Of a DNA stretch of 38,371 nucleotides, positions 13,788 to 36,669 are shown one piece after another (position 1 is the first letter of the stretch; every line of letters starts with the position of its first letter). The DNA is from Candidatus Heimdallarchaeota archaeon LC_2 (GTDB lineage: Archaea; Asgardarchaeota; Heimdallarchaeia; Heimdallarchaeales; Kariarchaeaceae): the NCBI GenBank assembly GCA_001940725.1, contig MDVR01000173.1, forward strand, positions 1-38,371, in the 5' to 3' direction. The notes under the pieces were generated by a model, which did no database searches, was not told the DNA's origin, and saw only the letters and a list, made by a program, of their open reading frames with translations. The position numbers and the translations under genes are program-made.

Positions 13788-13943
13788 CCACACAAGACAT
13801 GTGAATGTGTATCAATTTATAATACTATTCCCGAGATAATCAATTAAAAAATTAAATTCGTAATAAATCAAATTTTTTATAAAAATAATAAAATTACCCG
13901 CCATGATCTAACCGTTATCTAATTCAATTTTAAATAAAGGTTT

Positions 13944-15590
13944 TCACGTTCCACAAACACTATCTGGTGTCGCCACCACTTCTTGCGAAGCTAATAATGT
14001 TCTCGATTCATTTGATAAATCCGTGTTTCTGTCATCTTCTCCCTCTTTCGATGTCTCGAAAAATGAGATCAACAAAGATGTGTTACCGTGATTTTTTACC
14101 GCCGTTTGATCACTGTTAACGGCGTTTCTGTTAGACAGATTAGAACTTCCTCTTATACGCTTTGGTGCTGTCGGAGTTTTCGGTTTCGCAAAACCTAGTT
14201 CTCTTACCTCAAATAAAGAAGACTTTAGATGAGAAGTAAGTTTAAAGTATTTAGCAGCTCGTTTGGCAATATTGGTTGCACCATTGAAATCAGCATCTCC
14301 CATCCATTTACAGGATACATTTTTACACTTGAAAAATTCCTGTTTGGGACGTTTACCTTTGGTATTACATTTCCAACATTTGATAGAGGTCCAACCCTCG
14401 GGGATAGTTAGGAATCTACGTTTATAGCCAGATTTGGATAATTTGTATTCCAACATCCAAGTAAGTTGACCATAAGCCCATCGATGAATTCTCTTTCGAT
14501 GTCGCTTGTTTCCATTGCCTCTTCTCTGTCCTCTACGGATTCCTTTTAACTTTCCAATACCAATCCACAGATCATATTGATCAGTCAAACTCAATAGATA
14601 TTTATTTATCTCAGCTGAAAGCTGATGACTAATCTCATATTTTAATTCTGATCTTTCGGATCGTAATTCTCTCAACAAACTATACAGACCGTCAGTCTGT
14701 TCATTATCTGTTGATCGTTTTGCTGCTTTGTGTTGTATTTCTGCAATCCTCTTATCTAATTTTAGGATTGCCAGTTTAGTATTTTCTATTCTTTCCAGCT
14801 TGATAAATTTATGACGAGATACTCCATGTGCAGTAATAATAGATATTACCGCATCACGATTAATACCCAGATCGATTCCTGCAATTGCTAACTCCTTATT
14901 TGATTTTTTAGGATAATATTTACTGGTTAATTGTTTTACCTTGTGTCGAATTGCAAAGATTGCATAATAATTCCTTCGAGATCTGATTATTCGTACTGCT
15001 TGGAGTGAACCTTCCATGGTTTTACAGATATGATATTTCTTAAGATCTAAATTTAAGGTCAATTTGTCATGTTGAATTTTCCTTTTTCCATTATTTATCA
15101 TAGAAGGATTTGTATCCATACTATCCATAATAGTTAGAGTTCTCTTGTGATAACGTAATTTAAATCTACGATATCCAATCGATCTAGGAACAGATGATTT
15201 GGCTGTAGGTATTGAAGCATTACCTTTCTCTTTCAATTCGAGATAGGATAGATACATACCAACTGCAGTATCCCTACATTCTTTCAGTTCATTCAAACTG
15301 ATGCGAGGAAATTGTATTTTCAAATCATGGTTAACTATATTACGATCTGAAGTTGTGCAGGTTAATTGATCCAATTTTCCTTTATCAATCTTAATGGAAA
15401 TCTTTCCATTTTTCTTCTCCCTATACTCAACCAATTCCTTTTGGTTATCTTCTATTACTCCAATATATCTCGATATAATACGAGAATCTCTACCTAGTAT
15501 TTGACGCAAGCGTTGTTTATGTTTATGACTCAATTTAGATGTATCAATTAATACTTTAACTGAGGTTGTAATTTTATTATTTCGAGTCAT
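13944..15590 (-). CDS. tnpB: TnpB (IS605/IS1341 OrfB) RNA-guided nuclease with displaced catalytic glutamate
   Basis: TnpB is the transposon-encoded RuvC-like, RNA-guided DNA nuclease ancestral to Cas12. The RuvC parts are: D240 in GIDLGIN, the RuvC-II strand DLWIGIGKLKGI where the usual Glu position is G346, the zinc ribbon C405xxC408 with C422 and C427, and D434 in DADFNGATNIA. The missing Glu is replaced by E398 in IPEGWTSIKCWKC, directly before the TSxxCxxC zinc motif; this is the rearranged layout reported for eukaryotic Fanzor and its TnpB relatives. At 548 residues it is long, with an extra 100-residue C-terminal tail, Ser/Asn-rich, after the RuvC-III motif. No tnpA lies next to it. 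A guide RNA gene would be expected to overlap the 3' end near 13860-13950. Confidence 0.9.
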   Translation of the reverse strand: MTRNNKITTSVKVLIDTSKLSHKHKQRLRQILGRDSRIISRYIGVIEDNQKELVEYREKKNGKISIKIDKGKLDQLTCTTSDRNIVNHDLKIQFPRISLNELKECRDTAVGMYLSYLELKEKGNASIPTAKSSVPRSIGYRRFKLRYHKRTLTIMDSMDTNPSMINNGKRKIQHDKLTLNLDLKKYHICKTMEGSLQAVRIIRSRRNYYAIFAIRHKVKQLTSKYYPKKSNKELAIAGIDLGINRDAVISIITAHGVSRHKFIKLERIENTKLAILKLDKRIAEIQHKAAKRSTDNEQTDGLYSLLRELRSERSELKYEISHQLSAEINKYLLSLTDQYDLWIGIGKLKGIRRGQRRGNGNKRHRKRIHRWAYGQLTWMLEYKLSKSGYKRRFLTIPEGWTSIKCWKCNTKGKRPKQEFFKCKNVSCKWMGDADFNGATNIAKRAAKYFKLTSHLKSSLFEVRELGFAKPKTPTAPKRIRGSSNLSNRNAVNSDQTAVKNHGNTSLLISFFETSKEGEDDRNTDLSNESRTLLASQEVVATPDSVCGT

Positions 15591-15604
15591 AAGACAATCA
15601 TCCG

Positions 15605-15766
15605 TATATTTAAAGCTGTGATCATATTGATTTTTCTAGTTCAATATTTATACTCAGAAGAAGCGAAAATAACAAATCACAACTAAGGCCTTTTCGAAAT
15701 TTTTTATTCTTCAAAGGATAATACTTCACATAATTATATAGAACACCGTTATATTTAAAGCTATGA
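15605..15766. repeat. Duplicated promoter-like element upstream of tnpB (gap 15591-15926)
   Basis: TATATTTAAAGCTGTGA at 15605-15621 recurs with one mismatch at 15750-15766, each preceded by ccgt. Read on the minus strand both give a TTTAAATATA TATA-like box; the first lies about 20 bases before the tnpB ATG. The second copy, 145 bases further out, has no gene behind it in this orientation. The rest of the 336-bp gap is very AT-rich and has a purine-rich aaagggag, a ribosome-binding site, at 15911-15918 just before the nuclease gene. I see no other feature. Confidence 0.5.
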
Positions 15767-15926
15767 AGAACATATTTCTAAAATACTTTATAAACGTCTA
15801 AAATGATCGTATAATTCAATATTAATATATTGTATTTCTCAGAAATATATTAAAAAATCGCTAATAATAAATATTACAAAGATTTAAACAGTTATAGAGA
15901 ATTTACATAAAAAGGGAGAATAATAA

Positions 15927-17486
15927 TTGTCCGATGACTTTGAAGATAAGTTCAGAAAGCGAACGAAGGAAAATCTTGATGTCTTAATCAGAAAAGCTAA
16001 ACCAAAGGAACAAACCGAATTTACAGATCCAGTTGATGAGTTAATTCATCATCCCTTGAGTCCAGAGATAGCAATCCAACCCATGAGTGAAACTTCATTA
16101 CAAATACTACACCCTCTAGGAATTGAATTCTCTGGATTTACTCCACTAGAACAAATTAAGTTCAGACCAGTTATCCCTTCCTCATATCGATTGATGAAAT
16201 TTATAGTATTATCACTAAAGCAAAAAATTCAAGGTTTGGCTATTATATCGAGGCAATTATTTTCTAACGACGTTTACAGTAAAGTACATGAGCATTACAA
16301 GAAAGCCAAGATTGAAACTGATTATAACAAATTAAAAATACTGGAGAGAATCCAAGCAAGATTGTTTTGGCAAAACATAAAAAAATATGCTCAGAGAAGA
16401 GGAGTGCCATTTAAACGTCGTTTATATCGCAAAGCAGGTCGATCTCAAATTGATTTATTGAATCACAGATTAAACATAGTTGGGAACCGATTGAGAAGAA
16501 AAACAATGGAAACAATAGGGACAGGAAAACTATTTTTTGAGGAAATTGAGACTGTTCATATAAATTTCTCTTCACTCGATTCAATAGAAGCAATTAGGCC
16601 AGTTTTGTATTTTATTGTTATTAGATCTCTTTCTGTTCCATTTTCACAAATTAGGGAACTGGTTGACAAAACAATTGAGATTGGGGTTCAATGGACCAAT
16701 AGTTGGATTGCTAGTATGGTATCAACGCAACACCATCCAAGAAAAATATCTTACTACAATTTATGCAATTTTGTCAATAGAACATTAAGAGAACTCGGAG
16801 TATTCCGATTCCGTCCCTTCCAGAGCAAGAAGGTAACAGGGTATTATTCTACGGAAGACTTTGATATGATATCAGACGTAGGAATTGTTTATTTAGGCAA
16901 GCAAACTCCAGAACAGAAAGCCGGAGAAAAGATACATCGTCAGGTTTTATCTAAATTCCCCCAACCAATTAATCTTCCACATTTTGAAAACATAGCACAT
17001 ACTGCTTATCCACAAATTATTGCCGAAACAATAATTAGAAACAAATTAGAGACATATAGTGGAAAGACTGATATTCTTATTTTCGGTGAAATTTCGGAGA
17101 AAGGAATTGAAAAACACAATAATTCTGATGTTATGCTCATTGCAGATATCAAAACATATGATTCCTCAAATATCCACATAAACCATCTTGAGACTACTCC
17201 CAATCAGGTATATCAGATCGAGCAATACTGTATGTTAATTGAAGGTCAAAATTATGACCTATCAAACACGATAAAAGCAATTATACATATAGACCGTCAA
17301 AATATACCATTTGAATTTATTGAATTTCTGTGGATCATTATCTCATTTAAGATTGAGGATCAACAGTATCAAAAAGAGCTCAATGAAGAAAATCATGATC
17401 TTGAACATCATTATTCCAATGATGATATGGCATTTTTCGATTTAGTAATTGCTGATAAGGGAATCAGGATCACATATTGGAAATGA
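15927..17486 (+). CDS. PD-(D/E)XK nuclease (RecB/Cas4-like) with long helical N-terminus
   Basis: The 519-residue protein carries a C-terminal nuclease core from about 325 to 500: AGEKIHRQVLSKF (the motif-I region with His), YSGKTDILIFGE (D382), ADIKTYD (D407-x-K409, the metal-binding D-x-K), and QIEQY (Q430xxxY434). This order matches RecB, Cas4 and AddB nucleases. The first 320 residues are basic and mostly helical, with KRRLYRKAGRSQIDLLNHRL and KTMETIGTG segments that could bind DNA; I recognise no known domain. There is no cysteine cluster, so it is not a Cas4 orthologue. A TTG start is preceded by a good gggag ribosome-binding site nine bases upstream. The next gene starts ten bases inside its 3' end, so the two proteins are translationally coupled. 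Confidence 0.8.
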   Translation: MSDDFEDKFRKRTKENLDVLIRKAKPKEQTEFTDPVDELIHHPLSPEIAIQPMSETSLQILHPLGIEFSGFTPLEQIKFRPVIPSSYRLMKFIVLSLKQKIQGLAIISRQLFSNDVYSKVHEHYKKAKIETDYNKLKILERIQARLFWQNIKKYAQRRGVPFKRRLYRKAGRSQIDLLNHRLNIVGNRLRRKTMETIGTGKLFFEEIETVHINFSSLDSIEAIRPVLYFIVIRSLSVPFSQIRELVDKTIEIGVQWTNSWIASMVSTQHHPRKISYYNLCNFVNRTLRELGVFRFRPFQSKKVTGYYSTEDFDMISDVGIVYLGKQTPEQKAGEKIHRQVLSKFPQPINLPHFENIAHTAYPQIIAETIIRNKLETYSGKTDILIFGEISEKGIEKHNNSDVMLIADIKTYDSSNIHINHLETTPNQVYQIEQYCMLIEGQNYDLSNTIKAIIHIDRQNIPFEFIEFLWIIISFKIEDQQYQKELNEENHDLEHHYSNDDMAFFDLVIADKGIRITYWK

Positions 17487-19447
17487 TTATAATGGAGCTT
17501 CATTCTGAAAATATCGTACCAAAAATTCTTTTCATTTACGATCATGATTTCTTATCTTTTAATAATCCAATAGATCCGAGAGCAAAGTACATTCAGATCT
17601 TAAGACATATCAGGCAAATAAAGGATGTAACCTCGGCCAAGAGTCATTCAATTCATTGGTTAGCATCGCATCTATTCCCATCCGTTCCCTTTATAGAGGC
17701 CATCTCTATGCATTCAACTGAAAACTTGGCTAAAGAAATTAAATATTTTAAGTTCGTAGATGTAGATACAGATTCATTTATTTCAAAGCGGAATCAATTT
17801 CTGAATTTGTTTGGCCATCTTGAAAGACAAATTAGTGATATTAAAGAAAATGAAGATCTAATTCAACTATTTGTTATCGATGACTTAAGAGAATTATATA
17901 CATGGAGTAAAGAAAATAATTTTGGTCTCTCACTGTTTTTTAATACTCTATTTCAAATTATCAATTTTCCGAATATTTATCTTATATGTATTTCAAGACC
18001 TCAGATTACAGATAGGGTAGATCAAAATGGTAATCGGGCTGTCAGGGCTTCTTTTCATAACTTACTAAGGATACAAGCTCAAGCTTCACAAATCGAGATT
18101 AAATTTCAGTGGTTAGTAAGACCCCCGGCAGGTGCTAAATTAAAATCAGAGTACAAAAAAGGTACAGATACTATTCTATCATTTTTTGTCAGTCCCCAAA
18201 ATTTCGAAGGATACGAACAGGATGGGCTTTTGATTAGCTCTGTATTGGATAATCCAGAAATTAGAGTTTGTGATATGAATTTAGCAATGGAGGAAAATCA
18301 GACTTTTTCAGTATCAAAAAAGGCTGAAATAATTGAATCAACAATGGCATTAATACAAAATTATCAACGTCAAGCTGAGAAAGAAAGAGAATTTAGTTTT
18401 TCAATTGTTGATGATTTTACTAATTATAGACTCTATACAAATTCAAAATTAAAAATGGCAACCTCTTCAACAAAGAGTGGGATAGATCGAAAAACACGTG
18501 CAGAGGATAAATTAGTCAATTTTATAGAATATTCCCTCAAATTGAAAGAAATTAAGGAGAAGAGAATATTCGCACTACAGGGGGATGAGGATAAATGGCA
18601 AGATCAAGTAGAAACCGTTAGCAAATTGATTGATGAGCATTATAAATTGGTGAGTATTACAAAAGAAACTCCAACTCTGTTAATTGGTAATATATTGAAT
18701 AAATATTATGATTTGTTGGGTTTGGATAAAGAGGAGATATTGGAGATCGAAATTCTATATAAATCTCAAGAGAACTGGCTTAGGCCTTTTTTAGCTCTTT
18801 TCCAATTTACCACTAAAATATTATATTCAAATGTAAAGATAAATGTTAAGGACAATCTTAAATTCGTTTTAAATCATCCCCAGGTCCAGAATTGGATATC
18901 CCAGTATCCGACATCCAGGATTTACTACAATACCTGGGATACAAAGAAAGCTGTTGTATTAGCAAGAAGAATTCCGTATACCCTAAATATTTTGCACCCA
19001 CATTTAGGAATATCGTACTCAAAACTAGATCAGATATTACTTGAAGCTCAGGAAGGAGATTTGGAGATATTAGTAAGCCCAGATAGAGATGATAAATATT
19101 CTATAACCTGTAGGATAACTACATCTAATTTTGAACCAGTAGTATTTTCAACGATTGGATTACATAGTTTTCAAATTTCAACTGATAATAAACCATTTCT
19201 TCCAACTGAATTCGAAACAATAATCAGTGTAGTTCCATTCATTAAATACAGGGACAGTACAATCTCTGAGAAATGGAAATTTAAAATTATTAATATAGAA
19301 TTTTCAAATTTTGATAGATCGCATGATCTTGAAAATATAAGCTGGAATAAACCATCCCGGCTGAAATTATATATAAGTGAAATTGATGCGGTGGTTGAAC
19401 TTAATGAAAAGGACAATTCTTATTTGTGGAAATTAAATCATTTATGA
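17477..19447 (+). CDS. Large protein of unknown function coupled to the nuclease
   Basis: I do not recognise this 656-residue protein. Residues about 10-260 look like an alpha/beta core: KILFIYDHDFLSF at the start, and LIQLFVIDDLRELYTW at 125-140 resembles a Walker B strand of RecA-like ATPases, followed by NIYLICISRPQI. No Walker A (GxxxxGKT) is present, so it would be a degenerate RecA fold at best. The middle (270-420) is charged and helical; the last 150 residues are beta-rich (LEILVSPDRDDKYSITCRI). The gene overlaps the nuclease gene by ten bases and runs into the convergent helicase gene with a six-base overlap at the stops. It is probably the recognition or scaffold subunit of the nuclease; that is inference from context. 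Confidence 0.7.
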   Translation: MEMIIMELHSENIVPKILFIYDHDFLSFNNPIDPRAKYIQILRHIRQIKDVTSAKSHSIHWLASHLFPSVPFIEAISMHSTENLAKEIKYFKFVDVDTDSFISKRNQFLNLFGHLERQISDIKENEDLIQLFVIDDLRELYTWSKENNFGLSLFFNTLFQIINFPNIYLICISRPQITDRVDQNGNRAVRASFHNLLRIQAQASQIEIKFQWLVRPPAGAKLKSEYKKGTDTILSFFVSPQNFEGYEQDGLLISSVLDNPEIRVCDMNLAMEENQTFSVSKKAEIIESTMALIQNYQRQAEKEREFSFSIVDDFTNYRLYTNSKLKMATSSTKSGIDRKTRAEDKLVNFIEYSLKLKEIKEKRIFALQGDEDKWQDQVETVSKLIDEHYKLVSITKETPTLLIGNILNKYYDLLGLDKEEILEIEILYKSQENWLRPFLALFQFTTKILYSNVKINVKDNLKFVLNHPQVQNWISQYPTSRIYYNTWDTKKAVVLARRIPYTLNILHPHLGISYSKLDQILLEAQEGDLEILVSPDRDDKYSITCRITTSNFEPVVFSTIGLHSFQISTDNKPFLPTEFETIISVVPFIKYRDSTISEKWKFKIINIEFSNFDRSHDLENISWNKPSRLKLYISEIDAVVELNEKDNSYLWKLNHL

Positions 19448-21559
19448 GGGATTCATGCGAATTATTTTATCAAAATGAGAATACGCTGAGGTTATTTGCA
19501 ATTGAAGGTGAGGGAGAATTTCAACGGTCTTGTCTGAAAATAAGTATCCGTCTGATATTTGTTCATTTACTACCTGCTGAAATCCATTAAGTAAATTCCT
19601 AATCTTTCTTAGTAATTGTAATTCAGCCTTGTTTGGCTTAATCGTTACTGAATCATTTGATAAATAATAATCAATGTGTTTTAGTTGTGATAAGATCTTG
19701 CTTAGCTGCTGAATATCTATATCATCATATCTGTTTTGACCAAATACTCGCTTCATTTTCGCCATTTCAGGTATTATCTTGGGATCAGTCTTAACAATTA
19801 ATTTTACAATCCCAGCAATATTATCAATTCTGATAAGACCCTGTGTATATAATCCATTAAATTCAACTAGGAAATCAAGAATTTGTTTAGGTGAAATAGA
19901 CATTTTTGAAAGATCACACATTGCTGGATTTAACGATATTTCCAACTCATCTAGGTTAACTTCTTGTATCAAATGCCGAATCATAAGTATTTTATTCTCT
20001 AGTATATTATTTTGATATTTAATCTGAATAAGGGGATTAGCAAGAAAATTATTAATCTCATCAATAAAGATACTTTTTCTCGTTGAAATTAAATCTTGAT
20101 TAGGTTCTAGGGTTCGCCTATCCTGTTGAGGTGATAGGAAAAAAGATAAATTACTAAAATCAATGAGATCTTGGAAATTATTAAACCAACCAGCAACACA
20201 CCCATCATTAAGAATTTGTTGAAATTTCATTTTCCCAAAATACGAATTGAAATTACTTACAAGACTTGGAGAGATTTCTATAGCCTTGTGATATATGTCA
20301 AATCCTTCTTCAAGTGTTTCCCCAATACAATATACCAAAGAAGTGGTGCTTGGTTGATGTCCCGTTCTACCAATTATTTGTTGTAACATTAAAATTTGAG
20401 AGATTGATAACTTTTCATTTTGTTTTATGTCATTATCTTTCCAATGAAATAGTTTATCATAAAGCGATCGAAATGTTAGAATTACGGCATCAAAAGGATA
20501 ATCAACCCCCATAGCAAATGTAGTTGTTCCAAAGATACAATCAATAGATCCTTCTCTACACAATAATTCCACTATCTTTTTTTGTTTTTCTGGAATATTT
20601 GCGTGGTGATATAAAGAATTTATTTTTAGCCAATTTAAAGTTTCAATACTCTGTAACAAATAAGAATTGAGAACTTTAGTTTCCAATTGAGTTGAACACA
20701 GTATCAATACACGTTGTTGCTTTTTAATTGATCGTAAACAAATTAAAATTGTTGTGATATATTTTTCGGGAATGATTTTCATTAGTTTTTCTAGATTAAA
20801 TATCGATGATTGGTGAGATAGTTCCCGGTCTATTAAAATACGGTCAGTAAGGAATTCATTTTCTTCATTATCCCTACTATAGAGTAGCAACTCATTGTTT
20901 TCAATATTTATGTCTGCCACATAAGCTAGATATGGATTTAACCTTTCATTAGAATGACTATATCCTGCTTTCATCCAACATGCAATTTGATTTGGATTAT
21001 GAATGGATCCACTCAAACCAAATATATTTCCGCCCCATCTATCTTGTTGCTGCAGATATAATAAAATAGAAATTATAAACTCGTATGATGGACCTCTATA
21101 AAGATCTGAAAGTAAATGAACTTCATCCACTATAATCAGTCCTACGTCATCTATAAAATTGGGATTTTTTCTTAATTCAATTTCAAACTTCTCTAGTGTT
21201 GACACAAGAACTTGAAAATTCTTGAGAGCTACACTTACGATTGATGGTTTCATTTTTCCCTGAACGTAATATGTATTAGAAAAAAAAGTTCGAAATTCTT
21301 CGTAAATTTGTTTATTTAATGCCCGAGTTGGGGTTAGATAAATAATTCGTTGATCTCTCTTTATTATTTCTTCTGATTTTATTATTGTTAGTAATGTCTT
21401 ACCGGAACCTGTCGGTATGGAAATAAGGAAATTTTGATCCTCTAGGAGCCCATCATTTATCACCTTGACTTGTAACTGGTTTAAGGAGGATAGACAACTT
21501 TGGCGCAGAATATTATCAACTGCATTAAAATCGCTTGGAGAATAGGATGGTGATATCAT
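19442..21559 (-). CDS. Ski2/Hel308-like superfamily 2 helicase
   Basis: The 705-residue protein has a full SF2 set: Q-like QLQVKVINDGLL, Walker A SIPTGSGKT with Lys54, Ia YLTPTRALNKQI, DEVHLL (motif II), GLSGSIHN (III), LILCSTQLE (IV), TTFAMGVDYPF (V) and QIIGRTGHQ (VI, with His where an Arg finger-type residue is usual). After motif VI the protein keeps winged-helix and ratchet-like helical regions as in Hel308. Such helicases unwind DNA in repair or in anti-phage systems. It converges on the nuclease/unknown pair (six-base stop overlap), so the three form a compact module. A partial, dead copy of its 5' end lies at 28400-28695. The gene has a TATA box placed for leaderless transcription. 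Confidence 0.9.
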   Translation of the reverse strand: MISPSYSPSDFNAVDNILRQSCLSSLNQLQVKVINDGLLEDQNFLISIPTGSGKTLLTIIKSEEIIKRDQRIIYLTPTRALNKQIYEEFRTFFSNTYYVQGKMKPSIVSVALKNFQVLVSTLEKFEIELRKNPNFIDDVGLIIVDEVHLLSDLYRGPSYEFIISILLYLQQQDRWGGNIFGLSGSIHNPNQIACWMKAGYSHSNERLNPYLAYVADINIENNELLLYSRDNEENEFLTDRILIDRELSHQSSIFNLEKLMKIIPEKYITTILICLRSIKKQQRVLILCSTQLETKVLNSYLLQSIETLNWLKINSLYHHANIPEKQKKIVELLCREGSIDCIFGTTTFAMGVDYPFDAVILTFRSLYDKLFHWKDNDIKQNEKLSISQILMLQQIIGRTGHQPSTTSLVYCIGETLEEGFDIYHKAIEISPSLVSNFNSYFGKMKFQQILNDGCVAGWFNNFQDLIDFSNLSFFLSPQQDRRTLEPNQDLISTRKSIFIDEINNFLANPLIQIKYQNNILENKILMIRHLIQEVNLDELEISLNPAMCDLSKMSISPKQILDFLVEFNGLYTQGLIRIDNIAGIVKLIVKTDPKIIPEMAKMKRVFGQNRYDDIDIQQLSKILSQLKHIDYYLSNDSVTIKPNKAELQLLRKIRNLLNGFQQVVNEQISDGYLFSDKTVEILPHLQLQITSAYSHFDKIIRMNPS

Positions 21560-21581
21560 CCTAGATATAATATCTTCAAAT

Positions 21582-21589
21582 CTTTATAA
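21582..21589 (-). promoter_or_regulatory. TATA box for the Ski2-like helicase
   Basis: TTATAAAG on the minus strand is centred about 26 bases before the ATG, so the transcript would be leaderless. The same box, with the same surrounding bases (acttataaagatttga), is kept in front of the dead copy at 28695. Confidence 0.7.
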
Positions 21590-21774
21590 GTAAACATTAG
21601 AATTTTATTCCATTTCAAATTTGGTGAAGTAAACAAATTTGATTTATCATAATATAACCTTTTGAAATAATCCAAATAAACTTGTATTCCCTTTTCAACT
21701 CATAAAAATTTAAGATTTGTAATTATTGCAGGCTATACAATATCGTTAAATATCATGTCTTTGGTCTACTAATT

Positions 21775-22545
21775 ATGTACATGATCTACATTGATGAATC
21801 AGGAACCACGCATCCATCTGATCGTACAAACTATATCTTGACTGCGGTATTGATTCATGAAAGTACATGGAGAAAGTTTGAAAGGCTTGTATTGCAAGCA
21901 AAAGAAGATTTTATTCAAGGTGAAAACAAGGATTCTATAGAATTCCATGCCTCCCCAATTGCAACTGGAAAGGATGATTTTAAAGATTATTCAATTGAGG
22001 ATAGACATAACATTTTGATCAGACTCTCAAATATAATAAAGAAAAATAGGTGTAGATTAATTTCGGTCATAATTGATAAAGCAAAAATCAAAAGTGAAAT
22101 TCGAACAAAACCTCTCGAGGAGCAAGCGGAGTGGACTCAATTGTGGGCATGGAGATTGTTACTTGAAAGAGTTGAAAAATTTCTCAACAAGAAAAATTTA
22201 TTACCAAAAACAAACTTTGGTTTATTGTGTGTAGACAATAACAGTGATAAAATTACTTCAGACATTACAAACATCATCCAACAATTCAGAAAGGCTGGAA
22301 CTATGTATCTCAACAGTAAATGGATAATTGAGAATCCATTTTTTGTAGATTCTGGGATGAGAAATTTAATTCAACTAGCTGATTTTGTAGCATGGGTAAC
22401 GAAACAATGGGATGATCGAAGAAACGGTTCTGAGAATGCTCATGATGAATTTAATGAAACATTATTTGATAATATTAAAATCCGTTTCGATCGAATTACA
22501 CCAGAGAAATTCATGGGATTCGGTCTCAAAATTCACCCCAAATAG
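21775..22545 (+). CDS. DUF3800 family protein
   Basis: The 256-residue protein begins MYMIYIDESGTTHPSDRTNY, the YIDESG hallmark of DUF3800, an RNase H-like fold protein family common in phages, mobile elements and defence islands. Further family signs are FHASPIATGKDDF (catalytic-side E/H region), VIIDKAK, LLCVDNNSD and the late LIQLADFVAWVTKQW. The acidic residues in YIDES, in VDNNSD and in QLADF would sit at the metal site if it is an active nuclease, which is not proven for the family. It stands between module A and module B, divergent from the helicase gene with a gap of about 215 bp. Confidence 0.85.
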   Translation: MYMIYIDESGTTHPSDRTNYILTAVLIHESTWRKFERLVLQAKEDFIQGENKDSIEFHASPIATGKDDFKDYSIEDRHNILIRLSNIIKKNRCRLISVIIDKAKIKSEIRTKPLEEQAEWTQLWAWRLLLERVEKFLNKKNLLPKTNFGLLCVDNNSDKITSDITNIIQQFRKAGTMYLNSKWIIENPFFVDSGMRNLIQLADFVAWVTKQWDDRRNGSENAHDEFNETLFDNIKIRFDRITPEKFMGFGLKIHPK

Positions 22546-22589
22546 TTATACCATTTAGCTATTTAATCGAACATTTTATTTATTTTGAT

Positions 22590-22880
22590 GGTGTAAACAT
22601 GTTGACCATTTTGGGAGCGTGTGTGTACGCTGATGCCAAACGGGTAAGTAAGTGTGAATTGTTCAATTCAACCATGCGTGCCCATCCGTCCATGCAAAGG
22701 CTTGCGTTCACGCTTTCAAAATCTTCAAGCGAGCTCTCGAGTCAGTTTCAAATACAAAAAAATGAGACTCCCAGAAGTTCAGAAACACTCCTATTAGTGG
22801 AGTGTCTTGCTCAGTATCCTGTCATCTTTGATGATTCATCAACAAAGGAGATAAAATGGTCACTTGCCGGTTATGGGTAG
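22590..22880. other. GC-richer island, probable mobile-element remnant with hairpin
   Basis: This block is visibly richer in G and C than its neighbours. On the + strand a 93-codon frame (22599-22880) is open but shows no recognisable domain. On the minus strand a protein-like sequence with four in-frame stops can be read: FISFVDESSKMTGY, then ARHSTNRSVSELLGVSF, then MDGWARMVELNNSHLLTRL. The minus-strand reading looks more like a decayed coding gene and the + frame its shadow, but I cannot name the family. A perfect hairpin, ACACTCC/GGAGTGT with a seven-base loop, sits at 22785-22805. Confidence 0.4.
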
Positions 22881-23185
22881 GGTACTGAGTTTTCCTCTTA
22901 TCGTCATATTCTCACTTTCGTAAAACAGAACTCCATTATATTCTGGACCAAACTAACTTTTTGTAACAACAATTTTCAAATGAGATTTCCAAAGTAAGCG
23001 CATACAATTCTTAAGCATCTCATGCCGGGGAGAAAGTATGAATGAAAGAATTATGGACGTTATACTAAGATTGCAAAAAATCTATGATAGATTGATCCAT
23101 TTCTGAAAATATTTTTAAATACATAATTATTCAGTTTAACAGGGGTGCGTCTTAAGATATATATGCTAAATGTATTATAGATTAA
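22881..23185 (+). promoter_or_regulatory. Gap before module B with a TATA box at 23156-23165
   Basis: The gap of about 305 bases holds no gene that I can see. Near its end gatatatatg at 23156-23165 is spaced 26-29 bases before the first start codons (GTG 23186, ATG 23189) of the 191-aa gene, so this is the likely promoter of the whole + strand series, giving a leaderless first gene. Confidence 0.55.
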
Positions 23186-23761
23186 GTGATGGAAGACAAA
23201 GAAACAGAATGTGAAATAAGTGTTGATTTCAGTAAGCCTTCATTCACTTTAAAAGGAACTAAATCATTCATCGAAGAAAATATTGAATCTATATTAGAAA
23301 AAATTCAAAATTTTGTAGTCCCAATAATTGTCCCTCAAACTCGTGGAGTAGAAGCTAGTTCTGAAAAGATTAATAAAAGTATAAAACAAGTTGAAAAGAG
23401 TTATTACTCTTCATTGGGGCAAAAAATCGATATTGATGATTATGAAAAAATCAAAACTAAAATAAAAATCACTGATGATGAGATAAAATTTCTTTCCCAA
23501 TTGGACTTTGGATCCCAAGTAGCGACAACTGCAAATCTAACTTATATGAGCACTTACTTAGCAACAATAATAGTTAAAAGAGATATTAAAAACGATGAAC
23601 TGAAGCGAATATGTATGGAATTTGGGAAGGACGTTTCTGATCCCAGAATCGGTCAATTCACAGATAAATCATTAATTGACAAAAAAAATGGATGTTATGT
23701 TTTGGAATTTCCTGGCGAATTAAGGGCAAAAGAACTAATTCAAGAATTGATCAACAGCTAA
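23186..23761 (+). CDS. Module B small protein 1, unknown function
   Basis: The 191-residue protein is not recognised as a named family. Its N-terminus (EISVDFSKPSFTLKGTKSF then IEENIESILEKI) is a beta-hairpin plus helix of the form x-V-x-F-...-LKGT-x-x-F-I-E. The 202-aa protein two genes downstream has the same pattern (IIKGSEEFVEK). The C-terminus YVLEFPGELRAKELIQEL aligns with the C-termini of two other genes in this series. The middle (ITDDEIKFLSQLDFGSQVATTANLTYMSTYLATII) is helical. Start may be the GTG at 23186 or the ATG at 23189. The helicase gene begins 13 bases after its stop, so the two are co-transcribed. It is probably a small adaptor or DNA-binding partner of the helicase. Confidence 0.65.
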   Translation: MMEDKETECEISVDFSKPSFTLKGTKSFIEENIESILEKIQNFVVPIIVPQTRGVEASSEKINKSIKQVEKSYYSSLGQKIDIDDYEKIKTKIKITDDEIKFLSQLDFGSQVATTANLTYMSTYLATIIVKRDIKNDELKRICMEFGKDVSDPRIGQFTDKSLIDKKNGCYVLEFPGELRAKELIQELINS

Positions 23762-23774
23762 CTAGGAATTTTTC

Positions 23775-25274
23775 ATGAAAGAAATAATACGAAGAAAAGT
23801 ATTTCCTGAAAAAAGAATGCTTAATGGTGAAGAAATTAATTTGTCTAAATCACTGATTGCAGTTGATCCAGGGATCTACTATGAACTTACCAACGAAAAA
23901 AATTTCAGCATATTTGCTAATGGCGAATTATTAGATTTTATCAAAGAACCATATTTGGTGATGCCCTATAAAGTAAATGAATATCTATTAATCGTACCTG
24001 CCTTCTTGGATATTTCATTTGGAATATTATATTTTGAGAACAAATCATATAAAGTTTATTTAGTCAATAAATACACAGCGTGGGTAAATGAAATCCCAAA
24101 AAAAATGCAAGAAAAATTTCCAAACATAGAAACAAATTATATTCAAATCAATGAAAATAATGAGATATCGAATTTCTCAATAATTGAAAATGAACTTCCA
24201 AAAATTAAATCATGGATTCACTTTCAAAGTGATGGTAAAATATTTGTGAAAGATAAATTTGAATATGATTTCAAGTTAAAACTCATAGATGAAGGATATT
24301 TACCATATAAATCAATTCCAGTATCCAAAATTGATTTGCATAATACTCTAACCATTAAATCAATCAACCTCAGAGATTATCAAATTCATGCATGGGAACG
24401 ATTTAACGAACATGGATCAATAGGTGTTTATTGGCCACCTTCCGCAGGTAAAACAATATTTGGTTTGTTTTTAGTTTCTAAAATCAGTGGTAACATTCTT
24501 ATTGTTGTACCCACAATTACGCTGAAAGAACAATGGAAAAACAAACTACTTGAGTACTTCGGAGATAAAATACTATCCAGAGTTGAAATCATAACCTATC
24601 ATGGACATGTCAAAGTCGCTAAAAACATATATTCATTGACAATTTATGATGAACATCAACATCTTCCGGCTAAAACATTCTATAAATTAGCTCTGCTAAA
24701 AACAAAATACAGGGTAGGATTAAGTGCGACTCCATTTAGGGAAGATGGTAAAACCAAACTTATATTTGCATTAACTGGGCTTCCCGTAGGTGTTAACTGG
24801 GATGTATTAAGAGAGAAACGCATTATAGAAAATCCAAATATTGAGGTTATTGTCGTGAAAAATCTCAGTAAGAAATTTGAAAAATTGGAAAAAATTATAA
24901 ATTTTGACAAAAAAACATTAATTTTTTCTGATAGTATCGAATTTGGAGAAAAAATTGGTAATAAATTAAATGTGCCTTTCATTTCTGGAAAATCAAAAAA
25001 TAGAATACAACAAATTTCAAACAATAAAGTCATTGTTGTGAGTAGAGTTGCAGATGAAGGAATATCAATAGATGATTTAGAAGTGATTATAGAATTTGAT
25101 TTTCTCTTTGGTTCTAGAAGACAAGAGTTACAAAGGTTAGGTAGACTCCTACATTCAAAATCTCGAGGTAATCACTATGTTTTAGTTACCACTATTGAAT
25201 TTCAAAAGTACGGGAAAAGGTTTGATAGCTTAAAAGAAAAAGGTTTTCAAATAAAATTAACGAAAGAAGAATAA
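23775..25274 (+). CDS. XPB/Rad25-like superfamily 2 helicase
   Basis: The 499-residue protein has a 190-residue N-terminal domain with no recognised motif. A compact SF2 core follows: RDYQIHAWERF (Q-like), Walker A PPSAGKT with Lys226, DEHQHLPA at 292-299 (the DExH form seen in archaeal XPB), VGLSATPFREDG, RVADEGISIDDLEVII near 424, and RRQELQRLGRLL (motif VI). Archaeal XPB helicases are 450-500 residues and often partner the Bax1 nuclease; no Bax1-like gene is here. Instead the gene sits between small proteins with shared motifs, a HEPN-like protein and a serine protease. I read this as a divergent XPB-like helicase recruited to a defence-type cassette; the ordinary repair role is the alternative. 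Confidence 0.85.
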   Translation: MKEIIRRKVFPEKRMLNGEEINLSKSLIAVDPGIYYELTNEKNFSIFANGELLDFIKEPYLVMPYKVNEYLLIVPAFLDISFGILYFENKSYKVYLVNKYTAWVNEIPKKMQEKFPNIETNYIQINENNEISNFSIIENELPKIKSWIHFQSDGKIFVKDKFEYDFKLKLIDEGYLPYKSIPVSKIDLHNTLTIKSINLRDYQIHAWERFNEHGSIGVYWPPSAGKTIFGLFLVSKISGNILIVVPTITLKEQWKNKLLEYFGDKILSRVEIITYHGHVKVAKNIYSLTIYDEHQHLPAKTFYKLALLKTKYRVGLSATPFREDGKTKLIFALTGLPVGVNWDVLREKRIIENPNIEVIVVKNLSKKFEKLEKIINFDKKTLIFSDSIEFGEKIGNKLNVPFISGKSKNRIQQISNNKVIVVSRVADEGISIDDLEVIIEFDFLFGSRRQELQRLGRLLHSKSRGNHYVLVTTIEFQKYGKRFDSLKEKGFQIKLTKEE

Positions 25275-25284
25275 ATATATAAAA
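25273..25284 (+). promoter_or_regulatory. Internal TATA box in module B
   Basis: aaatatataaaa overlaps the helicase stop codon and is centred about 26 bases before the ATG at 25305. It could drive the 202-aa gene and the following HEPN-like gene independently, as a leaderless transcript. Confidence 0.5.
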
Positions 25285-25304
25285 TCAATACTATTAACAT
25301 ACTA

Positions 25305-25913
25305 ATGGTTGAAGAAACTGGTGAATTTGCTGAGATACATTACAACAAAAAAATTGGACAAGTTATCATCAAAGGATCAGAAGAATTTGTTGAAAAAATG
25401 TTTGATAAATTAAATCAGGAAGGCTTGCTTGAATGGGATTTAGTAAATTTTACTGATGAGGAGTTAGTTACACCAAATGCCACTATCCAGAGCATACATG
25501 AACCTAAACAAACAACTGATGTTGAAGAAGCGGGAACCAATGATGGTGGTGCTATAAATAAAATAGCTGATAGTTTACAAATTCCAGTTGATAAATTTAG
25601 TGACGTTCTCGAGCTTATTGGAGAGGACATATATTTTCATGGGGATATTAAAGGGAGTAAAAATGAAATTGTAAGACAAATATCTTTTATGATCTTATAC
25701 ATTACTAATGTAATTGGGAATGGATGGGTAAAGAGTGCTTTTATCGCTGATACTGTCCAGAAGAGTAATTTTGATCATGTTCAGATTTCTAAAGCGCTTC
25801 AGTCAATAAGTTCAATGATAACTCAAAAAGGGAAGAAAAATGCTACAGAATACAAATTAAATAGGGAAGGACTGGACAAGGCTAAAGGTATTATGCGAGA
25901 ATATCTAAAATAA
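25305..25913 (+). CDS. Module B small protein 2, N-terminal hairpin plus winged-helix-like C-terminus
   Basis: The 202 residues start with a strand-strand-helix unit (AEIHYNKKIGQVIIKGSEEF, then VEKMFDKL) matching the first protein of the series at its KG(S/T)xxF(I/V)E motif. A variable acidic linker follows (about 55-85). The C-terminal 110 residues (KIADSLQIPVDKFSDVLELI through KSAFIADTVQKSNFDHVQISKALQSI) look like a winged helix, ending in EYKLNREGLDKAKGIMREYL. That ending is the shared tail of the series; the LNREG motif is typical of the wing of archaeal winged-helix domains. Probably a sensor or DNA-binding adaptor. No catalytic residues are evident. Confidence 0.65.
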   Translation: MVEETGEFAEIHYNKKIGQVIIKGSEEFVEKMFDKLNQEGLLEWDLVNFTDEELVTPNATIQSIHEPKQTTDVEEAGTNDGGAINKIADSLQIPVDKFSDVLELIGEDIYFHGDIKGSKNEIVRQISFMILYITNVIGNGWVKSAFIADTVQKSNFDHVQISKALQSISSMITQKGKKNATEYKLNREGLDKAKGIMREYLK

Positions 25914-25928
25914 TCTTGGTAATTATAA

Positions 25929-26717
25929 ATGACTAATATTGAAGTGATACTTTTAGATTTGATTAACGCAAATATTATATCAGAGAATGGATCAAGTATT
26001 GATGAAGACGACGCAAAAAAATTAATTGAGTTTTGGGTATCTTCTAAGAAACATTATTTTCTTCAGGAAAGATCCGCATCAATTACCGCAGCAGGACAGT
26101 TTTGTGAGAGATATTCAAAAATTCTTCATTTTATTTGTTACAATAACAAAGGAGAAGAATTTTCTTTCGGACCTCGCATTGAAAGAATTCAAAATAATTG
26201 TAGAAATTCACTACCTGATGAGATTCGAATGACTACGACCAGAGTTCTACGATCATGTTATCAAATACGAACAAAACGAGATGCTGCTCATGACAATGGA
26301 ATAACTAATAATACAGTAGATTTAATTATGACAGTTTCAATGATAAATTGGTTACTAATTGAACTTTTAATTAATTATGCCAACGTTCAAGAAGATGAGA
26401 TGAAGCAATTTGAATCCTATTTTTCAAATATTGACATACCAATAATAGAATACTTCGAGGGTAAACCTACAATTCTTAAACCTGATCTTGCAACAAATAA
26501 ACATATTTACCTTCATCTATTAGTAGCCAAAGAGAACAAATTGACTTTAAACGAACTTGATATTTTGATTAATCATACACGGAGGAGGATAGGTTCATCA
26601 CTCAATTATGAGAAAAATTTAGGTTGTCTCTATCAATCTACGGAAGGCTGGTATAAATTAAGTCGAGCAGGATTTGAAAAAGCTAAAATAATTATGATAG
26701 AATTAACTAATAAATAA
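25929..26717 (+). CDS. HEPN-like (abortive-infection type) protein with winged-helix-like tail
   Basis: The 262-residue protein starts 15 bases after the previous stop. Residues about 70-155 are helical and carry IRTKRDAAHDNGI: R114 and H121 fit the Rx4-6H motif of HEPN RNases. The surrounding pattern, Y-x-I-R-x-x-R-D-x-x-H-x-x-G followed by a helix MINWLLIELLINY, resembles the C-terminal HEPN of abortive-infection proteins. If active it would be a metal-independent ribonuclease. The C-terminal 70 residues end WYKLSRAGFEKAKIIMIEL, the tail shared with the other two small proteins, and suggest a winged-helix wing. HEPN identity is inferred from motif and helix pattern only. It precedes the protease gene by about 100 bp. 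Confidence 0.6.
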   Translation: MTNIEVILLDLINANIISENGSSIDEDDAKKLIEFWVSSKKHYFLQERSASITAAGQFCERYSKILHFICYNNKGEEFSFGPRIERIQNNCRNSLPDEIRMTTTRVLRSCYQIRTKRDAAHDNGITNNTVDLIMTVSMINWLLIELLINYANVQEDEMKQFESYFSNIDIPIIEYFEGKPTILKPDLATNKHIYLHLLVAKENKLTLNELDILINHTRRRIGSSLNYEKNLGCLYQSTEGWYKLSRAGFEKAKIIMIELTNK

Positions 26718-26818
26718 TGGTGGATTAACCCCTTCGGGTCTAAAAAAAACCTTACTTCTAACCTTATGCTTATATTGAATCTTGAAACAATATTTTTTCA
26801 GATAAGGTATATTTAACA

Positions 26819-27739
26819 ATGTCAAAAGACAATTCTAGTAATCATCATTATTACAAGGAAACTGATGGAGGATTGACAGATTCATGGTTACCGAATAATT
26901 CAAGAAAAATTACCATCGCAATTTTAAATAAGCTCCCCGATGATCCTATTTTGATAAACCAAAACAGTATATTCGGAACATCATTTTTAATTAATTACAA
27001 GAAGAGAATATACTTAATCACAGCGAAACATATTCTTGAAAATTTGTCTGAAAAGCCATTTTATTTAACGTTTTCATATATTGATCCAATTTCTGACGTT
27101 CCAACTATTTTTACATTAAAGGGGAAAGATTTGGACGGACATTCTTTAGAATGGCATTTTCCAAAGAGTGAGTATGATGATTTTGCATTTCTTCATTTAT
27201 GCCAACAGGAACTTGAATTACTTACAAGACAAGAAGCTAAAGTTGATTTCGGAGCCTATGTAGTTGAAAAGGACTTTGGAAATCCGCTAAAAATAAAAAA
27301 TATGGTAGGGGAATTAACTGCGGCCTTAGGTTACCCTGAAAAGGGCACTTCCATTTACGCCGATGGAAGAAGATCATTTTTTTCACAATCTATGATTTCC
27401 AAGTTAGAAATGTATGATCTCAGAAATGGTAAAATTGTATTGCGTGTTTCTACAAATAATCCTGAACAACCATACGTTGCATTGAAAACTAAACCACATG
27501 GGCTTAGCGGTGGTCCAATCTTCATTAGATATTTAGATGTCCCTGAGAGACCTTTCTCTCTGATCGGAATAGTGACAGATGTAACTCCCGCGGCTCAAGA
27601 TGAAGAAAATGATAATGGAGATGTAGCGGACAGACCCTACTTAAATTGTATAAAGGGAATAACATTCAACAAAATTCTAGCGTTTATTGACCAAGTTGAA
27701 ATCGATTGTGAGTGTATGTATAACACTAATTTTGATTAA
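26819..27739 (+). CDS. Trypsin-like serine protease
   Basis: The 306-residue protein has a chymotrypsin-fold catalytic triad: His71 in LITAKHIL, an Asp in EYDDFAFLHL (D120 or D121) and Ser230 in PHGLSGGPIF (the GxSGGP motif). Upstream of the His are FGTSFLINYKKRIYL strands that open the first barrel. It lacks a signal peptide and membrane helix, so it should act in the cytoplasm, unlike most HtrA-type proteases; no PDZ domain follows. Intracellular trypsin-like proteases encoded beside helicases and HEPN or winged-helix genes are known from bacterial anti-phage systems; whether this belongs to module B is inference. Between it and the HEPN-like gene are about 100 bp with a small hairpin and a TATA-like cttatattg, so it may have its own promoter. 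Confidence 0.8.
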   Translation: MSKDNSSNHHYYKETDGGLTDSWLPNNSRKITIAILNKLPDDPILINQNSIFGTSFLINYKKRIYLITAKHILENLSEKPFYLTFSYIDPISDVPTIFTLKGKDLDGHSLEWHFPKSEYDDFAFLHLCQQELELLTRQEAKVDFGAYVVEKDFGNPLKIKNMVGELTAALGYPEKGTSIYADGRRSFFSQSMISKLEMYDLRNGKIVLRVSTNNPEQPYVALKTKPHGLSGGPIFIRYLDVPERPFSLIGIVTDVTPAAQDEENDNGDVADRPYLNCIKGITFNKILAFIDQVEIDCECMYNTNFD

Positions 27740-27925
27740 TATACTTTCTTCTGCTTAAGAGCTAGATCTCATTTTGTTTTTTCTTAATGATTGATAAGAT
27801 GTCAGCGAGGGAAAATGATCAGAAACTAATCTTAAATATGTGATTAAATCCAAAAGAGACTATTTATTATATTATTTTGTATATAACCTCATTATCCTTT
27901 AACCCCCTCATCCATTGCGACAGAC

Positions 27926-28209
27926 GAAATTCCAATGCATGAATCGTTCAAGTGATTGACCATTACAGCAACATTGTGTTATCCGGTGGATCAACAATGT
28001 TCCCAGGTTTGAAGGAGAGATAGAGTAAAGAGCTTATCTCCCTTGTTCCAGAAGGAGTGGAAGTTAAGGTAGTCGCACCCCCAGAAAGAAGATATTCAGT
28101 CTGGATTGGTGGATCAATCTTAGCATCCCTTAAAACCTTCGGCAAGATGTGGGTTGCCAAGAAAGAATATTCAGACTCAGGTCCTAAAACAGTCTACCGA
28201 TGCATTTAA
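27926..28209 (+). pseudogene. Decayed actin gene 3' end
   Basis: The frame starting at 27961 reads SNIVLSGGSTMFPGLKER, then a stop (TAG at 28021-28023), then [54 protein letters not shown] and KTVYRCI with a natural stop at 28207-28209. This is the conserved C-terminal third of actin ([27 protein letters not shown], the final helix). Just upstream, in another frame, PMHES matches the actin HE(S/T) segment, with about ten codons missing after it. No intact actin gene is in the window. The fragment is eukaryote-like enough to place the host among Asgard archaea with an actin homologue. The 27740-27925 stretch before it shows no gene. Confidence 0.88.
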
Positions 28210-28399
28210 GTCTAAAACCTAAAAAAATTACAAATTAATTAAATAGATTTATTCAAATTATCATTATTAAGTACCATAATTCACATTTTATCTTGTATAT
28301 TTATGACAGGTAACAATAGAAAATAAGTTAAACAAGAAAGGCCTTATAATTAAAAGGTGTGCTCAACATTTATAAAAATACATTACACCAACTTGAATT

Positions 28400-28695
28400 C
28401 TGTACGTATGGAAATATATATTTCGAAATAAATGATAAATTTGTTTATTCAACGCACGTGTTGGAGTGAGATAGATTATTTTTTGACCTCTTTTAATGAT
28501 CTCCTCCGATTTTATTATTGTTAGTAATGTCTAACCCGATCCAGTTGGGAGTGCTATGACAAAATTTTGATCTTCTAATAGTCCAGCATTTATTGAGTCA
28601 ATTTGTAGTTGATTTAAATGTGTTAAATTAATATATTGAAGAGTTTTGGTTACGGTGTCTTGTTCATTAGTTGAAATGATATTTGCTACCATCAT
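28400..28695 (-). pseudogene. Dead duplicate of the 5' end of the Ski2-like helicase gene
   Basis: On the minus strand the frame from an ATG at 28692 or 28695 reads HLNQLQIDSINAGLLEDQNF, then VIALPTGSG, a stop (TAG at 28531-28533), then TLLTIIKSEEIIKR, IIYLTPTRALNKQIY and FRNIYF. It aligns residue for residue with the helicase at 19442-21559 (NQLQVKVINDGLLEDQNF, LTPTRALNKQIY). The stop falls exactly on the Walker A lysine. Homology ends near 28400; the rest of the gene is missing. The promoter copy upstream is retained. It is a relic of a second helicase gene, in the same orientation as the intact one. Confidence 0.9.
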
Positions 28696-28714
28696 GGATA
28701 TAATATGTTCAAAT

Positions 28715-28722
28715 CTTTATAA
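28715..28722 (-). promoter_or_regulatory. TATA box of the dead helicase copy
   Basis: TTATAAAG with flanks acttataaagatttga identical to those before the intact helicase gene, again 24-27 bases before the ATG. Confidence 0.65.
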
Positions 28723-28819
28723 GTAAAAATTCAGATTCTTTTCTGTAGTGAATTAACTGAAAAAATAATAACAATCCGTATAATTTGGAAATCAAACTTA
28801 AATTAAAATTGTTTAACGG

Positions 28820-29098
28820 TCACCCGCCATGTAAAATAGGTACGATTCGTAATTCAATGTCTTCATTCATCAGTTCTTCTAATAATCCTAAACTAGATAA
28901 TTCAGTTCTTCCTGATAAATACAATATTCCTGGTTTACGGCCTTTATCAGATAAACACAAATCTGAGATAGTCGGACTATTCTTCAACAAATCTCTTATG
29001 TTTTCAATTAAAGTTCCAGACTCAAACTCTCCCTCAAATTCAAACGGCTCCTTTTCAACTCTCAAACTTTGATGAAGTTTTAGTCTTAGATTAACCAT
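28820..29098 (-). CDS. MoaD/Urm1-like ubiquitin-fold protein ending in Gly-Gly
   Basis: This is a 92-residue beta-grasp protein (103 residues if an earlier ATG at 29131 is used; the later start fits where the first strand VNLRLKLHQSL begins). The C-terminus reads IELRIVPILHGG and stops immediately after the two glycines, the layout of MoaD, ThiS, Urm1 and archaeal SAMPs, where the terminal glycine is adenylated by an E1-like enzyme. Strand-helix-strand features: GTLIENIRDLLKNSP helix, GILYLSG strand. Role could be sulphur carrier for molybdopterin/thiamine/tRNA thiolation or protein modifier; context (GAPDH next) does not decide it. No E1-like gene is in the window. Confidence 0.75.
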   Translation of the reverse strand: MVNLRLKLHQSLRVEKEPFEFEGEFESGTLIENIRDLLKNSPTISDLCLSDKGRKPGILYLSGRTELSSLGLLEELMNEDIELRIVPILHGG

Positions 29099-29131
29099 TA
29101 TTTTTCCATTTATTGTTCTCAAATTAATCAT

Positions 29132-36237: not shown

Positions 36238-36669
36238 TCATATATCCTTTAAATGTAGTATTGCAGCATCTGGATAATGAATAAGGACTTTATTATAAAA
36301 AATACCATCTGCTGTTAGTAGTTGACAATTATAAAATTCCGAGAGTGCCAAATAGAATGTTTCGAATAATGAACTATTACTCCTACTAGTCATATTTATT
36401 GCAGTTTGAAGTACATAACCCGAAAAATTATCAAGTTGAATAATAAAAGATAATAATGAATCACCAATCTCTATAAGGTTATTTTTTGAGAAATTACCTA
36501 ATTTTGTTAAAGTGTTTATTACCTCAAATATCAAAATATTCGGTGCATATAAATTAATTTTCCCATTAATATAATTGTTCCGGATTTCAATCGCCTCTGA
36601 TGTTAAATCTTCTTCTATATACCATTTCAACACTACCGATGCATCAATAACATATTGATTTTCTGACAT
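36238..36669 (-). CDS. vapC: PIN-domain toxin VapC-like
   Basis: The 143-residue PIN-domain ribonuclease carries VIDASVVLKWY (first acidic residue D9), APNILIFEVINTL (E49-like second acid) and LLTADGIFYN near the C-terminus (last acid). The third acid, usually Asp in a YDAxYxALA motif, is here Glu in SLFETFYLALSEF; activity should survive but is worth noting. VapC toxins cleave tRNA or rRNA when not held by VapB. The ATG begins one base beyond the antitoxin stop, so the two genes form a standard VapBC operon. Confidence 0.85.
   Translation of the reverse strand: MSENQYVIDASVVLKWYIEEDLTSEAIEIRNNYINGKINLYAPNILIFEVINTLTKLGNFSKNNLIEIGDSLLSFIIQLDNFSGYVLQTAINMTSRSNSSLFETFYLALSEFYNCQLLTADGIFYNKVLIHYPDAAILHLKDI

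Follow-up and report, generated by a model that had tools for sequence, protein, structure and literature searches.

Which members of a tightly packed gene cluster in Candidatus Heimdallarchaeota archaeon LC_2 form a functional unit, and what might that unit do? The cluster lies in a 38,371-nucleotide (nt) stretch (GenBank assembly GCA_001940725.1, contig MDVR01000173.1, positions 1 to 38,371 of the forward strand), the whole of which is referred to below as the window, and consists of five plus-strand open reading frames (ORFs), g1 to g5. Their order, strand and spacing, as given in the initial annotation, were borne out: gaps of 13, 30 and 15 nt separate g1, g2, g3 and g4, and g5 follows g4 after 101 nt. 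Because the first three gaps are so short, the arrangement suggests that g1 to g4 form a single operon. Among the five products, Pfam names g2 only (XPB C-terminal helicase, ResIII and Helicase_C), and g1, g3, g4 and g5 fell below every Pfam and NCBIfam cut-off. As shown below, the part of this cluster that recurs in other archaea is a HEPN-like protein, g4, with one or more winged-helix partners; the XPB-like helicase, g2, appears to be an addition specific to the window.

The product of g4 (25929-26717, +; 262 amino acids, aa) is probably a HEPN protein and, judging by its motif, a ribonuclease. The assignment was made mainly because of the R-x(4-6)-H motif, which in g4 reads R114-TKRDAA-H121. 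Residues E60, R114 and H121 are invariant in all 41 rows of alignment A4, which was built from the six proteins of the loci plus 35 of the 63 that came from the database besides g4, and D131 and W141 are retained in all 40 ungapped rows. In the AlphaFold2 (AF2) model (mean predicted local distance difference test score, pLDDT, 85.5), the N-terminal part is helical, with residues 118-125, at the motif, below 50, and a winged helix occupies about 183-262. Foldseek matched winged-helix proteins to the C-terminus and, lower down, 1ufb, which we take to be a HEPN protein (probability 1.00, TMt 0.63, E 0.2), as well as Csm6 chains (E 0.2-0.3). BFVD yielded no match at E≤0.001, and the 50 rows obtained from VIA, spanning mainly residues 169-262, included no recognised HEPN chain. 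A single-sequence search of 5.8 billion proteins retrieved g4 itself only; a six-row profile found 64 proteins, including g4 and some of the query rows, and six-frame searches of 227 Asgard genomes uncovered five clear, divergent relatives. Scans of viral contigs detected no relative of g4.

Strong relatives of g4 (E≤1e-40) are present in 18 of 1053 archaeal genomes: 5 of 227 in the Asgard phylum (centred on G001, a Thorarchaeota record), 6 of 256 in the class of a Bathyarchaeota record, 4 of 194 in the phylum of a Pacearchaeota record, 2 of 186 in the phylum of a Halobacteriales record and 1 of 190 in the class of a Nitrosopumilus record, the last three sets being samples of larger groups. 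Three weak, partial Asgard matches (G132, G054 and G048; E 9.9e-14 to 8.6e-8) are left out of this count, which reaches 21 of 1053 with them. For comparison of gene neighbourhoods, 19 loci outside the window were used, consisting of the stretches around matches at E≤1e-40 and one plasmid (L152); together they hold 327 ORFs, and some of the contigs are short. A same-strand gene lies directly upstream of the HEPN gene in 16 of the 19 loci, at stop-to-start distances of -38 to +64 nt and with overlap in 11, as measured on the longest ORFs; the actual start codons may be more internal. This tally omits two weak HEPN pieces (L142:3-251 and L173:7883-8059; E above 1e-5). The upstream genes encode 129-210 aa (456 aa in L121), so that these 16 loci, and the window with g3, have a small gene directly before that of the putative toxin, as in type II toxin-antitoxin systems.

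At E≤1e-3, partner profile A5 picks up 13 of the 16 upstream proteins; ten of them are seeds of the profile, and the non-seed matches are those of L172 (8e-30), L173 (8e-10) and L121 (2.4e-5). At the same threshold, A5 also recognises the HEPN proteins of L174 and L172, the gene after HEPN in L122, genes away from HEPN in L159 and L121, and the additional partner genes of L119, L123, L142 and L148. In L119, as many as three distinct partner-like genes occur. This recurrence of the upstream gene is why we read the recurring unit as one or more winged-helix partners plus HEPN. A plasmid search with the HEPN protein of L143 returned one haloarchaeal match over 59%, without an upstream partner, and the same search with the L143 partner returned no match; a phage search gave none either.

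As we read them, the proteins beside the g4 relatives carry a winged helix preceded by either a strand-strand-helix head or a helical head. The profile of the strand-strand-helix head detected nine proteins, spread over 8 of the 19 loci; a single protein among them (L172, E 2e-14) is not a seed. The AF2 model of g3 (25305-25913, +; 202 aa; mean pLDDT 68) has a beta-beta-alpha head at residues 8-38, a low-confidence linker and a winged helix at 119-201. With three partner profiles g3 scores 20.2, 21.4 and 26.6 bits, above all 500 shuffled versions of itself (best 12.5, 8.4 and 8.7, respectively), and phmmer with g3 against the 327 ORFs matched the gene directly upstream of HEPN in L148 (E 3.2e-7). 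On account of these scores and this match, g3 can be assigned, at the level of sequence, to the partner family. Searched alone against the Asgard genomes, g3 gave a best E of 0.009.

The product of g1 (23186-23761, +; 191 aa, or 190 from the ATG at 23189; head ISVDFSKPSFTLKGTKSFIEE) is a possible paralogue of the partners. As a firm member of the family it was rejected: 1, 84 and 55 of 500 shuffles scored equally or higher with profiles X, Y and ALL, its score with the head profile was -2.0 (1463 of 2000 shuffles equal or higher) and its hhalign probability was 2.3. When g1 was compared with 16 partners or partner halves, only g3, L123b and L158b stood out both locally and glocally (0-2 of 500 shuffles), and L160 did so by glocal score alone (2 of 500). 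Separately, in L159 a 280-aa protein (234-1073, +) matches partner profile Y at E 1.6e-12; roughly 7-8 kb separate it from the HEPN gene there.

The product of g2 (23775-25274, +; 499 aa) is an XPB-like superfamily 2 (SF2) helicase or translocase by Pfam, homologues, family profile and motifs. Its match to PF16203 is above the cut-off; the SF2 core motifs and the RED stretch are present (positions 221, 292, 317, 425 and 453), as are the residues for ATP use. Among 7994 candidates scored, 1258 are homologues at E≤1e-3, and those among the 120 listed are 38-45% identical to g2. The best structure matches of the family profile are XPBII and Rad25; with the NCBIfam repair_heli_XPB model, g2 reaches 131.8 bits, far under the cut-off of 610. 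The family is patchy in Asgard, with 6 of 227 genomes positive at E≤1e-30 and none of G033-G042, the genomes closest to the window by GatE. In a helicase tree with 72 rows, of which 68 differ, sequences from viral contigs and from genome contigs are intermingled, and the supported branches require no fewer than 11 changes between the two; g2 itself sits on a long branch (1.24), and its join with a viral clade (support 31/30) was flagged as long branches meeting. We regard g2 as a mobile DNA motor, not a repair subunit kept by descent.

A scan of genome contigs using g2 alone gave no relative, and alignment-based scans yielded 48 loci on genome contigs and 45 from IMG/VR, the lower-ranked of which match the helicase core only. 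These 93 helicase loci, with flanks of 6-8 kb or less and a good share of distant helicases, hold 8932 ORFs, none of which resembles g4 or the partner family at E≤0.01. Conversely, the 19 g4 loci contain no XPB-like helicase (E≤1e-3) and no homologue of g1, g2 or g5 (E≤0.01). Two of the 30 genomes with fetched helicase loci carry a strong g4 relative, on other contigs. Because the helicase is absent from the g4 loci, and the helicase loci lack HEPN and partner proteins of this family, we take the helicase as an addition seen in the window alone. We nevertheless keep g2 as a likely working part of the module here, because it is flanked by two partner-like genes at gaps of 13 and 30 nt.

These comparisons redraw the cassette. 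The initial annotation had proposed a helicase, a HEPN-like protein and a protease as parts of one candidate system and had asked whether the five genes recur together. Partner and HEPN do recur in other genomes; the five genes do not, and with neither set of loci joining them, they are not a conserved unit. The fifth gene, g5 (26819-27739, +; 306 aa), a trypsin-like protease candidate by its His/Asp/Ser pattern, has no homologue in the 19 g4 loci at E≤0.01 and is probably a neighbour, not a core part of the module; the nearby DUF3800 gene is likewise taken as an island neighbour. The earlier observation is partly confirmed and its interpretation partly supported, the supported part being the idea of a conflict-type cassette with a HEPN-like effector on an inserted island.

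The insertion is traced through the flanking genes. A conserved winged helix-turn-helix (wHTH) gene (13133-13630), which follows GatE, and a gene that we read as ubiquitin-like/MoaD-like (28820-29131) adjoin in 3 of 5 relatives compared (L096, L175 and L176, with spacings of about 410, 560 and 44 bp by tblastn ends); in the remaining two, L177 and L178, the junction is absent and only GatE, or GatE plus GatD, matched. Since the two genes stand side by side in these relatives, the intervening 13631-28819 (about 15.2 kb) is most simply read as an inserted island. Across these three relatives, insertion is favoured because the alternative needs three losses. G+C content does not set the island apart (0.316 versus 0.326 and 0.324), and tRNA and Rfam scans of the window gave no match.

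The best reading, to which we give roughly an even chance, is a hitherto undescribed module of the abortive-infection or toxin-antitoxin type in archaea, composed of a HEPN effector and winged-helix partners, here with a helicase as its trigger. The sequence itself shows the arrangement of the genes, the motif residues of R-x6-H, winged helices, the recurring combination of partner and HEPN, and the insertion; ribonuclease activity, inhibition by the partners, triggering by the helicase, an antivirus purpose and the order of events are inferred. The winged-helix partners (g3 and possibly g1) would hold the g4 ribonuclease in check and might also aim it, for example to DNA, the pair acting as an abortive-infection or toxin-antitoxin module on mobile islands. 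The g2 translocase would most likely sense or remodel foreign or aberrant DNA and, as it moves at the expense of ATP, would release g4 or switch it on. Once released, g4 would, by analogy with HEPN toxins, cut cellular or viral RNA, so that growth stops.

Conflict genes near some related loci speak for this reading and bear on a broader version of it; a mobile setting is further suggested by an integrase near L143 and, below its cut-off, near L149. A HerA-like ATPase begins a few nt past HEPN in L173, where HEPN is split in two frames, and another follows HEPN in L122 with one gene between; an OLD/GajA-like nuclease lies about 110 nt after HEPN in L121. L157 is flanked by a type II restriction enzyme and a methylase, L160 by an Eco57I-type methylase and an HsdR-N protein, and L119 has a type III-like methylase about 2.8 kb away. 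It is possible, as a tentative extension, that this is a new archaeal immune system in which a HEPN-winged-helix ribonuclease and one to three winged-helix partners are combined with HerA-, OLD- and XPB-like nucleoside triphosphatases (NTPases) as interchangeable sensors of foreign DNA.

Several observations weigh against these proposals. Among the neighbours typed, 16 of 19 loci have no confirmed adjacent NTPase, and 13 of 19 have neither an NTPase nor a restriction-modification gene. Co-occurrence of g2 with the module is seen in the window alone, and the placement of the helicase could be chance. The upstream genes of L158, L159 and L174 are not recognised by A5 at E≤1e-3; L149, with a divergent neighbour, and the haloarchaeal plasmid L152 have no partner upstream, and in L122 the contig begins inside the HEPN gene, leaving no upstream partner visible. 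The specificity of A5 is limited: it matches two HEPN proteins through the common winged helix (1.2e-5 and 1.1e-4, compared with 2.4e-5 for L121), and the flank protein at 13133 matches it at E 0.0043, better than the 0.021 of g1. This protein, winged-helix by look and used as a control, also surpasses all 500 of its shuffles with the all-partner profile, at 16.1 bits, but does not do so with the other two partner profiles. As possibly a third partner copy, g1 is the weakest member, failing most tests. Neither the g4 nor the g3 model had a Foldseek match at E≤0.001, and the activities of the module proteins are predictions from sequence.

The rival that survives best, though doubtful, is a plain addiction module of an integrated mobile element, with the partner as antitoxin and autorepressor, g4 as toxin and g2 as a replication gene of the element that is in the operon by chance. 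It would account for the partner gene coming first, with an overlap into the HEPN gene at 11 of 16 loci, the integrase near two loci (L143, E 2.9e-12; L149, below its cut-off), the presence of g2 relatives on virus contigs and the lack of a helicase in the other 19 loci. In a simple toxin-antitoxin pair, however, several partner genes or a winged helix borne by the toxin are unusual, and both occur here, in L119 and on the HEPN protein itself; moreover, partner-like genes stand on both sides of the helicase, which is therefore not at the margin of the set. Improbable, in our view, is an operon by which an integrated plasmid or virus controls its partition or replication; the winged-helix proteins would then bind element DNA, g2 would aid replication and the HEPN-like domain would be inactive, serving in assembly. 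The winged helices do match the centromere-binding AspA of pNOB8, and the helicase family is present in viral contigs, but the winged-helix matches are generic, extending to MarR-type and other regulators with close Z values, and R and H are kept in all 41 rows of A4. No Rep, Par or integrase family was found among the island proteins scanned, a negative limited by g1, g3, g4, g5 and two further island proteins (519 and 656 aa) being under every family cut-off. Finally, a DNA-repair XPB operon with unrelated neighbours, the alternative raised initially and favoured by the XPBII and Rad25 matches, is very improbable given the repair-model score, the sporadic Asgard distribution, the mix of viral and cellular relatives and the position on an insertion.

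Besides g1 to g5, the island holds a TnpB, two proteins of unknown family, a Hel308/HamB-like helicase, a DUF3800 gene and gene remnants. The DUF3800 gene (21775-22545, +) matches PF12686 at E 2.7e-16. At the left end lies the TnpB-like gene (13944-15590, -; Cas12f1-like TNB domain, E 3.7e-10). The 519-aa and 656-aa proteins (15927-19447, +), with no Pfam match at E≤0.01, converge with the helicase at 19442-21559 (-), which scores to the Hel308 and HamB (Hachiman) models; together, the three may form a second conflict module within the island. Near the right end, about 27970-28210 (+) is the C-terminal remnant of an actin gene with an in-frame stop (28024-28206: PF00022, E 3.6e-20). At 28393-28692 (-) lies what remains of a copy of the first 100 residues of the 19442-21559 helicase, 61% identical and interrupted by an in-frame stop where the Walker A stretch lies, so that duplicate helicase ends bracket the block from DUF3800 to g5. 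Window genes outside the cluster include GatD/GatE, a Rag-type GTPase, GAPDH and TGT; among 227 Asgard phylum genomes, the nearest full-length matches of GatE are G035-G037 (63-64% identity), with a partial copy in G039 (73% across about 467 residues). A stand-alone PIN-domain gene (36238-36669, -; E 5.7e-6) lies outside the island.

How does the module compare with known systems? In the libraries scanned (Pfam, NCBIfam, PADLOC and PHROGs) there is no model of the recurring HEPN module, in line with the initial annotation, which named no described system with this set. Archaeal XPB pairs with the nuclease Bax1, presumably DUF790; g2 shares the SF2 core and RED stretch, and differs in belonging to a sporadic family common to virus contigs, and no DUF790 match at E≤10 was found in g1, g3, g4, g5 or the DUF3800 protein. 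The pair is named in the available text of PMC5797428. To Lamassu, the likeness is a weak match of g5 to LmuA (E 2.4e-6, PADLOC); g5, however, is not found with the module elsewhere, and among the PADLOC families listed for nine window proteins scanned (for one protein, the best 25 of 39) there is no LmuB SMC-like ATPase beside it. The available text of open-licence PMC literature on HEPN with XPB, HerA, winged helix-turn-helix, and archaeal or Asgard defence describes no such module. According to the accessible part of an Asgard survey, four of five Heimdallarchaeia groups are poorer in known defence systems, which its authors see as a hint of uncharacterised ones (PMC11291487); the HEPN module is a direct candidate for these and is small enough to clone, and its variant in the window poses the question of whether an XPB-type motor can trigger a ribonuclease effector. 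The DUF499-centred BREX-related (Hma) systems, which in the text available combine HEPN, helicase and methylase (PMC12839542), likewise join a HEPN effector with a helicase; in contrast, g1 to g5 include no DUF499 ATPase or methylase by Pfam, and HEPN here is a separate small protein that carries a winged helix itself. The HEPN proteins associated with restriction-modification systems and SF2 helicases offer the parallel of a back-up suicide ribonuclease near DNA-acting enzymes, and fusions of HEPN with wHTH exist, whereas a stand-alone HEPN-wHTH protein with upstream wHTH partners is not described in the sections of that work available (PMC3710099). The HEPN-MNT toxin-antitoxin system, listed as PDC-M05 in the portion available of PMC12988326 and common in archaea, likewise pairs HEPN with a cognate partner encoded by a small gene. 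Neither g1 nor g3 falls in a nucleotidyltransferase family of Pfam or NCBIfam; in contrast to HEPN-MNT, the module described here has a winged-helix protein as partner, in many cases bearing a beta-beta-alpha head.

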